Of a stretch of DNA of 32,392 bases, positions 23,912 through 32,392 are shown piece by piece. Within the stretch, counting starts at the first letter, position 1; every line of letters begins with the position of its first letter. A program made the translations under genes and the position numbers. The stretch comes from a virus. The notes under the pieces were generated by a model. It did not search any database. It saw nothing but the letters and a program-made list of their open reading frames with translations, and was not told where the DNA came from. The stretch spans positions 1-32,392 of the IMG/VR virus record IMGVR_UViG_3300037129_000027. One strand, written 5' to 3'.

Positions 23912-24121
23912 ATGAAATCAAAAATACAAAAAGCCCAAACAAAATTACCGATTAGATGTTCCCTTGAGTTTTCAAATCTTTGTCGTTTCCATTCTGCAAA
24001 GGCGTATCCCGAAGGATTGAGCATTGCTTGCGGATCGGCAGCACACTTTTTAAGGCAAGCGGCAAAAGAAAAGTTAATTAAATTGGGTGTACCTATAAAG
24101 TTTTTAGATTCAATTGTTTAG
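23912..24121 (+). CDS. 69-residue hypothetical protein, probably leaderless
   Basis: 69 residues from the ATG at 23912 (MKSKIQKAQTKLPIRCSLEF; then YPEGLSIACGSAAHFLRQAA; ends LGVPIKFLDSIV). No Shine-Dalgarno site is seen; a TATATT -10 box ends seven bases before the ATG, so the mRNA may start at the initiation codon. A frame with an ATG at 23876 would begin inside the promoter and is not favoured. Three Cys and a C-terminal helix are visible. It is flanked by a 13-base inverted repeat (23698-23710 and 24131-24145). It is immediately left of the cassette-like array and could be an early regulator. Family unknown. Confidence 0.5.
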   Translation: MKSKIQKAQTKLPIRCSLEFSNLCRFHSAKAYPEGLSIACGSAAHFLRQAAKEKLIKLGVPIKFLDSIV

Positions 24122-24133
24122 GTGTATATACTT

Positions 24134-24154
24134 CGTACAATAAGTAGTTGTACG
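24134..24154 (+). repeat. Inverted repeat at the left end of the cassette array
   Basis: CGTACAA, a seven-base loop and TTGTACG form a perfect 7-bp palindrome. Its right arm contains GTTGTAC (24147-24153), the same core box as at the start of the third and sixth units of the array. It may be the left boundary site (attI-like) or a reduced attC. It is far shorter than the six sites that follow. Confidence 0.5.
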
Positions 24155-24192
24155 CAATTTGCAAACCTTTTTAGATTGTAGGAGCGCGACAA

Positions 24193-24534
24193 ATGAAATG
24201 CCCACTTTGCAAGAAAATAGTCGAAACCAAATGGCCGAGCTGGTCAATGTTCGGTGGAGGTTATTGTGCTCCGAGCATCAATTGTGAGTGTGGTTTTAAT
24301 ATTGGTTGTAGCAACACCCAAATTGACGAGCTGGTAACGACATATCTTGAAAAAATGATCGGTCGCGCTCAGAACAATGCGGAGGGTTTGCAAACAGGCG
24401 CACAACAACCGCAGGCCGAAATTGTTGGCGACCTTTCAAAGTGGTCTGGTAAATGGAGCGAGCTTGCCTCATTCCTTAACAGCACGGTACGTAAAATAAA
24501 CGAACTCGCCAACAACATCGGGCGAGTGCGGTGA
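24193..24534 (+). CDS. Cassette gene A: zinc-ribbon protein
   Basis: 113 residues. The N-terminus MKCPLCKKIVETKWPSWS with a later CECGFNIGC gives CxxC...CxC...C, a zinc-ribbon-like set of Cys residues. Residues 44-58 form a helix (IDELVTTYLEKMIGR). The C-terminal half is encoded by the recombination-site-like palindrome (24400-24543). It is helical by composition (WSGKWSELASFLNSTVRKIN), but it may exist only because the frame runs through the palindrome. GTAGGAG lies eight to ten bases before the ATG. It is the first of six same-strand genes that each start shortly after a core box and end within a palindrome. No function can be named. Confidence 0.65.
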   Translation: MKCPLCKKIVETKWPSWSMFGGGYCAPSINCECGFNIGCSNTQIDELVTTYLEKMIGRAQNNAEGLQTGAQQPQAEIVGDLSKWSGKWSELASFLNSTVRKINELANNIGRVR

Positions 24535-24543
24535 ACGTTGTGC
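24400..24543 (+). repeat. attC-like recombination site A
   Basis: Outer boxes GCACAAC (24400-24406) and GTTGTGC (24537-24543) are exact complements. Inside, after spacers of two (AA) and five bases (TGAAC), CCGCA (24409-24413) pairs with TGCGG (24527-24531). Further in, TGTTGGCGA (24423-24431) pairs perfectly with TCGCCAACA (24506-24514). The whole 144-base element folds into a long imperfect hairpin, laid out as R''-L''-centre-L'-R' like an integron attC site. Confidence 0.75.
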
Positions 24544-24578
24544 AACATAACCGCCGAACCATTTTATAGGAGCCAAAA

Positions 24579-24806
24579 ATGAACAAGCTTTCTACTGGTC
24601 AAGATGCTACTCTTGGTAATTATCGCGCCCTTGCTTCTGTGGTGTTCGGGAACGATAGCGGCGCAACAAAATTTCTCGATGGTAAAATAGCCGAGTCTCA
24701 GAATGGGCGCGATGAAAAGGTCCTTGCCGATGAGCGGCAGATGATATGCCTTTTGGCTCAAATGCATAAGGAGTCGGCGGTTACGGTCGCCCAACAAATA
24801 AAGTGA
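24579..24806 (+). CDS. Cassette gene B: hypothetical protein
   Basis: 75 residues, TAGGAG nine bases before the ATG. It begins MNKLSTGQDATLGNYRALAS and has an acidic, helical middle (GATKFLDGKIAESQNGRDEK; ADERQMICLLAQMHKES). The last residues (VAQQIK) come from the left box of its site, which begins at 24789. It has one Cys and no membrane segment. The arrangement, a promoterless gene with its own ribosome site and an attC-like palindrome over its stop codon, is that of an integron gene cassette. No family is recognised. Confidence 0.6.
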   Translation: MNKLSTGQDATLGNYRALASVVFGNDSGATKFLDGKIAESQNGRDEKVLADERQMICLLAQMHKESAVTVAQQIK

Positions 24807-24851
24807 TGCCATTTGTAAAGCCAAACGGCACACGTTTATCAAACGTTGTAC
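24789..24851 (+). repeat. attC-like recombination site B
   Basis: Outer boxes GCCCAAC (24789-24795) and GTTGTAC (24845-24851). The inner ATAAA (24798-24802) pairs with TTTAT (24835-24839) and GTG (24803-24805) with CAC (24831-24833), leaving G24834 unpaired in the right arm. A central hairpin TGCCATTTG / CAAACGGCA follows with one wobble. Spacers are two (left) and five bases (right). At 63 bases it is the shortest of the six. Confidence 0.72.
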
Positions 24852-24883
24852 AAAATTTTTAACGCTTTGAATTTGGAGTTTTT

Positions 24884-25144
24884 ATGCTTGGTGGCAAAAT
24901 AGAAATCAACCAGTTTCAAAACCACATCGATCATACGTATCCGGTCGGCCATTGGGTGCAAGTCGAGTGGCAGCGCATAAAAAATGACATTGCGGAGGCG
25001 TTAAAACCTTCGCACAACAGCGATTTAATAAAATTGCTTTGTGATATTAAAACTTTATTGCTCGATGTCGATACACCTACTCGTGAACAACGGTCAGATA
25101 TTGTTCATCGTATCGCAAATGTAAGTGTAGCGCAACTTCACTAA
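24884..25144 (+). CDS. Cassette gene C: hypothetical protein, paralogue of F
   Basis: 86 residues, GGAG six to nine bases before the ATG. The start MLGGKIEINQFQNHIDHTYP is followed by WQRIKNDIAEALKPSHNSDL, which is nearly the same as residues 25-40 of gene F (YRKRIAEALKPSRNNRSDEI). Part of this likeness reflects the shared DNA around the left box of the site; the rest of the two proteins is less alike. The C-terminal half runs through the palindrome. No motif or membrane segment is seen. Confidence 0.6.
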   Translation: MLGGKIEINQFQNHIDHTYPVGHWVQVEWQRIKNDIAEALKPSHNSDLIKLLCDIKTLLLDVDTPTREQRSDIVHRIANVSVAQLH

Positions 25145-25160
25145 ATCGCAAACGTTGTGC
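25012..25160 (+). repeat. attC-like recombination site C
   Basis: Outer boxes GCACAAC (25012-25018) and GTTGTGC (25154-25160) are exact complements. The inner boxes GCGATTTA (25020-25027) and TAAATCGC (25142-25149) are also perfect over eight bases. The spacers are one base (A) on the left and four (AAAC) on the right. The element is 149 bases long and covers the 3' half of gene C. Confidence 0.75.
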
Positions 25161-25198
25161 AAAATTGCAGCCGAGATCAAATATTATAGGGGGTAGAA

Positions 25199-25552
25199 AT
25201 GTGGTCGTTCAAAAAGTCGGTTCCTAAAGTTGACGAAGAATTGGAGGCTCTCCGCAAACGCCTGAAAGCAGTGGAAGCCTTTGCTCCAGTTGGTTCTTTT
25301 GTTGAGTACCTTAGTGTTAAAATGATGGTCGTTAAGCATCACGAGTTTTATCCGATGCTTTATACTAAGTCAATTTATGTTCCTGGTTTAAAGTTGGAAT
25401 GGATGGATAGTATGCAGCGTTTGCAGAGAACCTTTTTAAGAGATTGGGAGTTTCCTCTTTGCAAAGTTATTTCGACCCCTGAAAATAAGGAGTCGGATGC
25501 AACTATCGCACAACAGCCGCAGCCAGAAAACGCGGCAGCACTGGCGGAGTAG
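25199..25552 (+). CDS. Cassette gene D: hypothetical protein
   Basis: 117 residues, AGGGGG seven bases before the ATG. It starts MWSFKKSVPKVDEELEALRK, with a coiled helix to about residue 25, then VGSFVEYLSVKMMVVKHHEF and a Tyr/Trp-rich middle (PMLYTKSIYVPGLKLEWMDS) that suggests a beta-sandwich or small alpha/beta fold. The last 18 residues (IAQQPQPENAAALAE) are encoded by the palindrome. No Cys pairs or transmembrane segment. The leader shares a 16-base stretch (GAGATCAAATATTATA) with the broken unit at 26292-26307. Family unknown. Confidence 0.6.
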   Translation: MWSFKKSVPKVDEELEALRKRLKAVEAFAPVGSFVEYLSVKMMVVKHHEFYPMLYTKSIYVPGLKLEWMDSMQRLQRTFLRDWEFPLCKVISTPENKESDATIAQQPQPENAAALAE

Positions 25553-25597
25553 TTTTTTATAGGCCGCGTCATCTGGCGAGTGCGGCACACGTTAGGC
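25508..25597 (+). repeat. attC-like recombination site D
   Basis: Left box GCACAAC (25508-25514) faces right box GTTAGGC (25591-25597), so the two outer boxes do not match each other fully. Inside, CCGCA (25517-25521) pairs with TGCGG (25581-25585) and GCCAG (25522-25526) with CTGGC (25573-25577), leaving GAG unpaired in the right arm. A central ACGCGGC / GCCGCGT stem is perfect. The odd right box belongs to the next unit, E. Confidence 0.78.
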
Positions 25598-25640
25598 ACA
25601 ATACCGGCTCCGGCCATACCAGAAAGCGGCGCGAGGAAAA

Positions 25641-25961
25641 ATGCCAAAAAGCATCAAATTTTTCAAGGACAAAAAGAAGGCTCTTGCCTATCGCAATAGA
25701 CAGCGCAAGCAAAATTATGATAAAAGTGTCAAGTTTGGGATTAATAAAAATCAACGGTGGTCGGCGGAAGACGTTGCAATAATAATGAAGCATGGCGTAA
25801 ACGATATAGTTATTGCAAAACTGATTGGGAGATCAGTAGCCGCAATTTTTAACAAACGAAACGAAGTCAAATATCGCGCCGCAGAAAGCGGAGCGGAGCC
25901 GGTACAATGCCTAACAAACAAAGGCCAAAATACCGGCAGTCCTGTAGGTAGCAAAGAATAA
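25641..25961 (+). CDS. Cassette gene E: Myb/SANT-like DNA-binding protein
   Basis: 106 residues, GAGGAAAAATG start region. The N-terminal 30 residues are very basic (KFFKDKKKALAYRNRQRKQN). Residues 38-76 read QRWSAEDVAIIMKHGVNDIV and IAKLIGRSVAAIFNKRNEVK, the W..eD..I......d..IA..lgRs..Ai..kR pattern of Myb/SANT-like helix-turn-helix domains. It probably binds DNA; a role in control is inference. The last 20 residues (CLTNKGQNTGSPVGSKE) are encoded by its palindrome. It starts 44 bases after the box GTTAGGC. Confidence 0.7.
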   Translation: MPKSIKFFKDKKKALAYRNRQRKQNYDKSVKFGINKNQRWSAEDVAIIMKHGVNDIVIAKLIGRSVAAIFNKRNEVKYRAAESGAEPVQCLTNKGQNTGSPVGSKE

Positions 25962-25999
25962 TTATAGGCCGGTACTTCGGCCATTTGTCAACGTTGTAC
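25909..25999 (+). repeat. attC-like recombination site E
   Basis: Left box GCCTAAC (25909-25915) is the exact complement of GTTAGGC at 25591, the start of its own unit. Right box GTTGTAC is at 25993-25999. The inner boxes ACAAA (25918-25922) and TTTGT (25984-25988) pair, then GGCC with GGCC, leaving A25983 unpaired. TACCGGC (25931-25937) pairs with GCCGGTA (25968-25974). This is the cleanest of the six sites. Confidence 0.8.
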
Positions 26000-26024
26000 A
26001 AAAGTTTTAACGCTTGGAGTAAAT

Positions 26025-26270
26025 ATGGTTTGCGATGGTTTAAATTGTGGGTTGATTTGCGGTATAAGAAATCCTCAAAGTGATTTGTGCATAGAGTATC
26101 GCAAACGTATTGCGGAGGCGTTAAAACCTTCGCGCAACAACCGCAGCGACGAAATTGCTTTTCTGGAATGTATAGTTAACGATCTAAAGGTGTTTTCTAC
26201 GCATTTTAAATATAAACGACTCATAGCGGCAATAACTGGCCGTATGGCGCAACTTCGCGCAATGCGGTGA
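26025..26270 (+). CDS. Cassette gene F: hypothetical protein, paralogue of C
   Basis: 81 residues, TTGGAG six to eight bases before the ATG. It starts MVCDGLNCGLICGIRNPQSD (three Cys near the start) and continues RKRIAEALKPSRNNRSDEIA, which matches gene C. The C-terminal half (FLECIVNDLKVFSTHFKYKR; ends AQLRAMR) is encoded inside the palindrome. The leader ACAAAAGTTTTAACGCTTGG matches that of gene C (ACAAAATTTTTAACGCTTTG), so C and F look like copies of one ancestral cassette. Function unknown. Confidence 0.6.
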   Translation: MVCDGLNCGLICGIRNPQSDLCIEYRKRIAEALKPSRNNRSDEIAFLECIVNDLKVFSTHFKYKRLIAAITGRMAQLRAMR

Positions 26271-26279
26271 ACGTTGGCA
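26132..26279 (+). repeat. attC-like recombination site F
   Basis: Left box GCGCAAC (26132-26138), right box GTTGGCA (26273-26279). CCGCA (26141-26145) pairs with TGCGG (26263-26267), followed by GCG with CGC (AA left unpaired on the right). CGAAATTGC (26150-26158) pairs with GCAACTTCG (26249-26257) with one mismatch. The spacers are two and five bases. It is the last complete site; the unit that should follow is broken. Confidence 0.7.
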
Positions 26280-26306
26280 GAAATAAATCCGGAGATCAAA
26301 TATTAT

Positions 26307-26423
26307 ATGCGCCCCACAAGCACAATCCCAATGCCTTACCGACAGTTGTGATAGACCAGTAGGGCCAGTTAAGGCTTTACAAGTCGCACACATCCTGGTG
26401 GAATTTCTTGAATCAGGTTCAGA
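26307..26423 (-). pseudogene. Remnant of IS200/IS605-type TnpB (C-terminal zinc finger)
   Basis: On the minus strand the frame reads SEPDSRNSTRMCATCKALTG and continues PTGLSQLSVRHWDCACGAH, 39 residues. This is the conserved TnpB pattern 'EvdprnstrtCs.CGa.tGp.Gl..Lsvr.W.C.CGa.Hd', with its CxxC and CxC zinc pairs. A TAG stop lies directly before the first residue. The expected HDRDxNAA continuation is missing because the sequence turns into cassette DNA at 26307. So this is a short relic of a transposon-encoded RNA-guided nuclease-family gene, not a working gene. TnpB remnants are common near IS insertions. Confidence 0.72.
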
Positions 26424-26827: not shown

Positions 26828-27250
26828 ATGAAAATTGAAATTAAATCGTGGTTATCGGACAGCGTTTTATTTTGTGGAGATTATAAAAATATTTTGGACG
26901 CGTTAAAAAGTGCTATTAAATCCGGAGCCAACCTGTCCGGGGCCGACCTGTCCAGGGCCAACCTGTACGGGGCCAACCTGTCCGGAGCCAACCTGTCCGG
27001 AGTCAACCTGTCCAGGGCCAACATTGATACAAAATATTGTTTTTTGTCAATTTCTCCCGTCGGCTCAGAAAACGGATGTTTATGGGTAATGCGTGGTGAT
27101 GATGGTGTTTTAAAATATAGTAGAGGCTGCTTTTATGGGACGGAACAGGAATTTGTTGACGCTGTTAAAAATAAACACAGTGGAACGGAAATTGAAAAAA
27201 AATATCTTGCGGCAGTTAGTTTTATTAAAATTCAATTGGGAGAAAAATAA
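26828..27250 (+). CDS. Pentapeptide-repeat protein
   Basis: 140 residues. Residues 33-67 are seven A(D/N)LxG-type units: GANLS, GADLS, RANLY, GANLS, GANLS, GVNLS, RANID. Such repeats fold into a right-handed quadrilateral helix. Seven units make less than two full coils, much shorter than gyrase-mimicking family members such as QnrB. Before them lie SWLSDSVLFCGDYKNILDAL and a short Lys helix; after them a mixed alpha/beta domain (CLWVMRGDDGVLKYSRGCFY; FVDAVKNKHSG). The repeat DNA (26926-27023) is clearly GC-richer than its surroundings. GAGGAAA precedes ATG. Confidence 0.75.
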   Translation: MKIEIKSWLSDSVLFCGDYKNILDALKSAIKSGANLSGADLSRANLYGANLSGANLSGVNLSRANIDTKYCFLSISPVGSENGCLWVMRGDDGVLKYSRGCFYGTEQEFVDAVKNKHSGTEIEKKYLAAVSFIKIQLGEK

Positions 27251-32050: not shown

Positions 32051-32392
32051 ATGAAGTACGGTAAAATTATTGATGGCGATTATAAGTTTAAAAGTGATGA
32101 CGATTTAAGTGATACGGAAGAAATAAAAGGCAACCTGTATTGCTATGGCGCGGATACTAAAGCGGCATTCCCCCAACTCACGACCGTAAATTACCTGTAT
32201 TGCTATGGCGCGGATACTAAAGTGGCATTCCCCCAACTCACGACCGTAGGCACCCTGTATTGCAATGAAGCGGATACTAAAGTGGCATTCCCCCAACTCA
32301 CGACCGTAAATTACCTGGATTGCAGAGGCGCGGATACTAAAACGGCATTCCCCCAACTCACGACCGTAGGCACCCTGTATTGCAGAGGCGCG
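32051..32392 (+). CDS. LRR-like tandem-repeat protein, partial at right edge
   Basis: 114 residues are visible and the frame is still open. After an acidic start (MKYGKIIDGDYKFKSDDDLS), a 20-residue unit repeats: LYCYGADTKAAFPQLTTVNY, then LYCYGADTKVAFPQLTTVGT, LYCNEADTKVAFPQLTTVNY, LDCRGADTKTAFPQLTTVGT. Spacing of Leu, Cys and Leu in 'LxC...A...FPqLttv' resembles a compact leucine-rich repeat. Such solenoids bind proteins. AGAGG precedes the ATG by eight bases. The DNA repeats with a period of 60 bases and over 85 percent identity. Confidence 0.72.
   Translation, partial: MKYGKIIDGDYKFKSDDDLSDTEEIKGNLYCYGADTKAAFPQLTTVNYLYCYGADTKVAFPQLTTVGTLYCNEADTKVAFPQLTTVNYLDCRGADTKTAFPQLTTVGTLYCRGA
32134..32392 (+). 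repeat. 60-base tandem repeat, more than four copies
   Basis: Units begin CCTGTATTGC and end near ACGACCGTA. The part CATTCCCCCAACTCACGACC is identical in all copies, whereas the TTGC(TAT/AAT/AGA)G(G/A) position varies. This suggests recent duplication followed by diversification at surface positions. The array continues beyond the window. Confidence 0.92.

Follow-up and report, generated by a model that had tools for sequence, protein, structure and literature searches.

The IMG/VR virus record IMGVR_UViG_3300037129_000027 (32,392 bases; hereafter the window, meaning this whole stretch of DNA) contains, at 24147-26272, six cassettes on the plus strand, each with a small open reading frame (ORF), its own ribosome site and a folded site resembling the attC sites of integrons. 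The preliminary description of this DNA had proposed an integron-like cassette array inside a phage genome, and the phage setting is borne out by the terminase, portal, replication organiser and DnaB genes of the record: the array lies between packaging genes on the minus strand (up to 23497) and replication genes on the plus strand (from 29841). The six same-strand ORFs and their ribosome sites are where that description had placed them, and seven GTT boxes fall exactly at its proposed unit boundaries (24147, 24537, 24845, 25154, 25591, 25993 and 26273), delimiting units of 390, 308, 309, 437, 402 and 280 bases in order. The features of the locus are given below, together with the scores of the folded sites in R1, a covariance model built from 18 aligned sites of other viral contigs, with the window excluded.

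23912-24121, plus strand: leader gene, 69 residues; 52% identity over the full 69 residues with L126:2115-2315 (E 7e-13)
24123-24146, plus strand: leader motif TGTATATACT (24123-24132) and the 14 nucleotides to the first R' box; promoter-like (-10 TATACT)
24147-24536, plus strand: cassette 1; ORF 24193-24534, 113 residues; site 24400-24543 (144 nucleotides); R1 35.9 bits, E 2.4e-7; own ends pair at -18.2 kcal/mol
24537-24844, plus strand: cassette 2; ORF 24579-24806, 75 residues; site 24789-24851 (63 nucleotides); R1 38.8 bits, E 4.5e-8
24845-25153, plus strand: cassette 3; ORF 24884-25144, 86 residues; site 25012-25160 (149 nucleotides); R1 36.6 bits, E 1.6e-7
25154-25590, plus strand: cassette 4; ORF 25199-25552, 117 residues; site 25508-25597 (90 nucleotides); R1 32.5 bits, E 1.9e-6
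25591-25992, plus strand: cassette 5; ORF 25641-25961, 106 residues; site 25909-25999 (91 nucleotides); R1 36.3 bits, E 2e-7
25993-26272, plus strand: cassette 6; ORF 26025-26270, 81 residues; site 26132-26278 (147 nucleotides); R1 24.6 bits, E 1.8e-4
26273-26310, plus strand: truncated start of a seventh cassette; R' box GTTGGCA and a leader resembling that of cassette 4; direct repeat with 25151-25188 (74%)

When R1 was run over the whole record, the six array sites were its six best matches, all on the plus strand (E 4.5e-8 to 1.8e-4; the next match had an E-value of 0.05), which agrees with the earlier claim of one palindromic site of 63-149 bases per gene. The sites carry the heptamers that characterize attC (RYYYAAC/GTTRRRY) and complementary L boxes; the R boxes read GCACAAC/GTTGTRC, with a single departure from the RRR of the consensus that occurs too in Vibrio GTTATGY. 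The spacers between R and L are asymmetric, at 1x4 or 2x5 nucleotides. In the 18-site alignment, 91.7% of the cells of the L helix are paired, with two-sided changes in all six pairs, and shifting the partner by one column lowers whole-structure pairing from 87% to 20-24%. An Rfam search of the window returned no match. The cassettes form a series of promoterless units on one strand with one site each, an arrangement characteristic of integrons. The earlier statement that promoters are absent holds for the cassettes, but a promoter-like and possibly attI-like leader lies 14 nucleotides 5' of the first box.

Beyond the R boxes, the two ends of each unit are themselves complementary. In the window, the first ~25 nucleotides of each cassette pair with the ~25 nucleotides ending in its own R'' box, 140-360 nucleotides away, and the resulting outer helix of 8-11 bp joins only the two ends of the same cassette. 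In cassette 5, for example, 25591-25612 pairs with 25894-25915 (whole arms -23.7 kcal/mol), while the R boxes of cassette 4 (GTTGTGC/GCACAAC) match each other perfectly and the neighbor's box does not match. Own start-end pairing in the window surpasses other start-end combinations, with 2 of 720 permutations equally good because cassettes 3 and 6 share arms; the outer arm of cassette 6 is identical to that of cassette 3. Larger sets of first 71 and then 90 cassettes were delimited by R1 alone and hence were unselected for end pairing. In the 90-cassette set, own-end pairing summed to -890.8, against a permuted mean of -454.7 (standard deviation 15.9), and in the 71-cassette set the pairing of an arm with the start of the next cassette (-5.0) equalled background (-5.1). 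The same caller found no outer helix in the canonical control integrons. For the bottom strand, folding predictions favor the circle form over the array form in all six window sites, by 5 to 18 kcal/mol, and own-end pairing would suit a unit with ends that come together, as they do in an excised circle. The arms at the start and end of a unit can also be read as imperfect inverted repeats flanking each ORF, that is, as 21-nucleotide terminal inverted repeats around a gene body moved by a transposase, with the hairpins as targets. We regard this transposon-like alternative as very unlikely: the R' box is where repeats break, each hairpin remaining attached to the body upstream of it, the L helix of the hairpin covaries strongly, and no transposase family is common to the arrays.

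The position at which units break was located from repeated sequences. Near-identical hairpins share their left flank and differ in their right flank; in one record (G006), a pair of copies agrees through ...GCGAACGTT and diverges immediately after it. For 45 repeated stretches, a count by eye gave 12 whose two copies both stop within the R' GTT and 9 that start in it. An automatic tally placed 6 of 89 right ends and 4 of 89 left ends at R', with 0.9% expected, and is an undercount because its site list is incomplete. The hairpin flanks and repeat ends argue that the exchange point is in the R' box (G|TT) and that each hairpin is part of the unit of the gene upstream of it, as in integrons. 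An inverted polarity with the cut in R'', first suggested by the mirrored bulges described below, was rejected, as the repeat ends speak against it. Whole-unit gain and loss, the absence of which the preliminary description had named as refuting evidence, is seen between related phages, and this, with the attC-like folded sites, supports the integron-like array that it proposed. Arrays occupy different loci in two collinear jumbo phages, G001 and G003, each at a place where the other phage lacks one: about 13 kb including an array separates, in G001, genes that are about 2 kb apart in G003, and elsewhere a 0.2-kb stretch of G001 corresponds to about 5 kb of cassettes in G003.

T4-type phages reportedly carry mobile promoter/stem-loop cassettes (PeSL), work on which is cited by PMC4503421; in these, small early genes are shuffled in association with stem-loops and each unit has an early promoter. 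By analogy with what has been proposed for these, the hairpins could be transcription or RNA-processing elements, the units being shuffled only by homologous recombination; they do lie between small same-strand genes, and some give terminator-like matches. This explanation appears extremely unlikely, since the arms of one unit pair across a whole gene (150-1100 nucleotides), which an intergenic RNA hairpin would not need, many breakpoints lie inside a box of 3-5 nucleotides instead of being spread across homology, and in 41 of 44 cases the ORF extends into the site. Unlike PeSL cassettes, the units of the present array lack individual promoters; they have a site-specific box and an outer helix formed from two ends.

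R1 and exact-pattern scans revealed more than 120 phage-type sites in about a dozen viral contigs, with each array confined to one strand. Under a strict two-ended rule, 40 cassettes were called in 1.18 Mb, against 1 when that DNA was reversed. Besides the window, the array-bearing records are the following.

G001 (213 kb), G002, G003 (219 kb), G004 (254 kb), G005, G006, G012, G014, G017 (170 kb), G018, and G022 (86 kb, about 20 sites)

Most of these contain recognizable phage genes (for terminase, portal, head or other functions), with weak evidence for G014 and G017, in a check that covered the records other than G022. The carriers include podovirus-like phages, phages with a lambda terminase and phages of 170-254 kb. 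Homologous cassettes recur across different phages (for example, G002 and G001 share a cassette at 51% identity over 77 residues), many DNA stretches are common to different arrays, and the end of cassette 3 of the window is shared with G002 and G004. One terminase relative of the window, G005 (TerL 39% identical), carries an array, located beyond its replication gene; the other TerL and portal relatives, in the flanks examined and at the thresholds used, have none. Since the window is a single metagenome contig, misassembly or bacterial contamination could in principle have produced the arrangement, yet the chance of this is virtually nil: the GC content of the array (0.44) is near that of the record (0.42), the leader gene is common to another phage, and independent phages carry the same arrays beside phage genes. 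In the 219-kb G003, a tmRNA gene (L085 981-1330; RF00023, 74.8 bits) precedes an array that begins about 200 nucleotides later, and a tRNA-Leu gene likewise lies before a second, short array. The array of the 48-kb record G006 (L052, L054) spans both contig ends, which share a 97-base identical overlap, so this record probably represents a closed circle that was opened within the array.

The phage-type sites share their general architecture with canonical integrons (class 1, Vibrio and Shewanella): one promoterless ORF and one folding site per unit, R'/R'' heptamers with GTT/AAC, L boxes, a variable tip, an exchange point in R', sites of about 60-150 nucleotides and units of 280-440 nucleotides. 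They differ in that the outer helix is formed from the unit's own ends, the R-L spacers are 1x4 or 2x5 instead of mostly 3x3, the ORFs read through the site, and no intI was found. Moreover, the two kinds of site do not detect each other. R2, a home-made canonical attC model built from 13 sites of Shewanella, Vibrio and the Tetrasphaera phage TJE1 (a small set, so that its E-values are rough), recovers held-out Shewanella sites and left-out class 1 sites; it recovered neither the six window sites nor the other phage arrays, and gave a single weak window match (14 bits, E 0.72). Conversely, R1 found none of the canonical sites. A cluster of attC sites lacking integron integrases (CALIN) calls for at least two attC-model hits, a number that R2 does not reach in the window, and the earlier label CALIN-like is therefore not supported in its strict sense; the sites form a separate family common to unrelated phages.

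CALINs in phages are already known: Qi et al. (2023; PMC9892861) described 17 of them, and five of six tested sites from virulent phages recombined with IntI1. Their examples (Tetrasphaera phage TJE1, PH101 and P12002L; PMC9892861) resemble the present array in being integrase-less cassette arrays in phage genomes, some with methyltransferase cargo. The TJE1 sites differ from the phage-type sites in their canonical look; three of them were in the R2 training set, and they are found by R2 and missed by R1. Neither a site type common to unrelated phages nor a leader, both of which occur here, was reported in that study (PMC9892861). Our literature search, which did not extend to preprints and most subscription papers, brought up no earlier description of jumbo-phage arrays, of a leader common to several phages or of a site class specific to phages; the site class, the leader and their spread thus appear new. 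That the window instead holds a piece of an ordinary bacterial chromosomal integron, a CALIN whose odd sites are the taxon-specific attC of an unsampled host, would fit the shared architecture, the existence of phage CALINs active with IntI1 (PMC9892861) and the variation of attC types between taxa. We consider it unlikely, given that R2 misses the sites while recovering those held out, that the site type and leader are common to unrelated phages, and that the cargo includes a phage early gene. In addition, an 18-mer of several array-bearing viral records had only three chance matches in 84,980 prokaryote genomes, and R1 had 0 matches in 296 Bacteroidota genomes, a search run without a positive control and with Gammaproteobacteria outside its sample. 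A 31-nucleotide probe run over plasmids and phages gave chance matches, none of the three inspected being an array.

The leader in front of cassette 1 is itself shared. In G018, whose terminase is unrelated to that of the window, a homologue of the leader gene directly precedes the first cassette, and in both phages the gene is followed by TTGTTTAGrTGTATATACT, with the first R' box 13-14 nucleotides further on. The leader gene had no Pfam match and almost nothing comparable in 50,697 phage records (best E 0.4). The motif GTATATACT, followed 13-14 nucleotides later by an R' box with the cassette-start motif, occurs in four arrays (window, G018, G005 and G003) and not at all in the reversed sequence. 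A weak sigma-70 match covers 24103-24132. From these sequences, we infer that the leader is a promoter and preferred insertion point, possibly attI-like. In G005, the gene before GTATATACT resembles, on inspection only, a small ribbon-helix-helix protein.

As to the cargo, the ORF of cassette 2 is 62% identical over residues 1-63 to gp32 of phage Zuri (E 1e-16), an early gene of Pseudomonas Schitoviridae phages, and the homology extends no further than the start of the site's outer arm. The ORF of cassette 5 weakly matches the phage regulator family phrog_323 in PHROGs (E 7e-4), the only match there among the six window proteins, none of which has a credible function in Pfam, PADLOC or NCBIfam. 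A Pseudomonas-like host is hinted at by the homologues of cassette 2 in Pseudomonas phages and by the TerL of G018, which is 66% identical to that of Pseudomonas phage TC7. Other arrays have C5 and N6/N4 DNA methyltransferases as cassettes or neighbors (L110 2301-3665 and 5044-5841; L126 4777-5484; L050 434-1492). A cassette of G001 (L060 7811-8833) encodes a 340-residue protein with RlmN/Cfr-like radical-SAM similarity (TIGR00048, E 1.9e-9, far under the cut-off). The GGAR motif of the outer arm lies in one reading frame in 23 of 29 cases, and this, together with the read-through noted above, argues that the sites encode the C-terminal tails of the proteins. Some tails have a CxxC zinc-ribbon look (inspection only) and some end in QLRA/QLSA, for example in window 26132-26270 and in the L050 and L060 arrays; one cassette tail matches phrog_13471 (E 1e-4).

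The most probable interpretation, which we hold with fair confidence, is a phage-associated integron-like array whose cassettes are moved among unrelated phages by an IntI-type recombinase acting in trans. The source of this tyrosine recombinase would be an integron of the host, a co-infecting element or genome sequence outside the record, and the enzyme would act on single-stranded DNA arising in phage replication. After excision as a circle, a cassette would be inserted either at a different R' box or at the end of the leader (24146/24147), and the array would be driven by the promoter-like leader element. The outer helix would form in the circle from the two ends of one cassette, so that free circles would fold better than inserted sites and insertion would be favored over excision. 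Unrelated phages of overlapping hosts could in this way swap early genes, the cargo being small phage genes and, elsewhere, DNA methyltransferases. Arrays of this kind are found in about a dozen unrelated phages, which suggests that phages exchange small genes by means of an integron-like system of their own.

Several observations weigh against this interpretation. As the preliminary description had noted of an integron integrase, no recombinase was seen: PF00589 (tyrosine recombinase) had no match in the window record, with the control positive in 14 of 14 genomes, and none in the other array-bearing records tested, which may be incomplete. A BLAST search with IntI over the records was run without a positive control. 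The only protein families shared by more than four array-bearing records are cassette-type methyltransferases. With neither a PF00589 protein nor another fitting family, supply of the recombinase in trans is the simplest reading. Furthermore, all array-bearing records are metagenome contigs. Finally, predicted single-base bulges of phage-type sites lie mostly on the R' arm (17 versus 4 on the opposite arm), the reverse of the canonical control (0 versus 23), and recognition by a normal IntI is therefore uncertain. In canonical attC, strand choice depends on extrahelical bases of the R''-L'' arm (PMC2727003); the phage-type sites depart from this pattern, with bulges on the R' arm, so that a strand preference cannot be assumed.

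A more tentative idea, to which we give a lesser though real chance, goes further and posits a separate, phage-owned cassette system, with a distinct site class (two-ended outer helix, mirrored bulges), a conserved leader (small DNA-binding-like gene, promoter and insertion point), a common pool of early genes and methyltransferases, and a recombinase other than the canonical integron integrase. Phage genomes are mosaic, and the swapping of whole small genes between unrelated phages is mostly ascribed to rare illegitimate recombination. A site-specific cassette pool common to podovirus-like, lambda-terminase and jumbo phages would, if true, offer a direct and testable route for such swapping. 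A further implication is that an entire class of sites may go unnoticed in integron surveys that rely on current attC models; the two-ended outer helix, for its part, hints at a means of biasing cassettes toward insertion.

Downstream of cassette 6, no end box matching the start of the seventh cassette was found by eye. Directly downstream of the array, 26828-27250 encodes a small protein with pentapeptide repeats (PF00805, E 7e-13), and its DNA contains a 15-bp repeat. After dnaB, a 60-bp unit is repeated in tandem (4.4 copies, 32128-32392) and reaches the end of the record.

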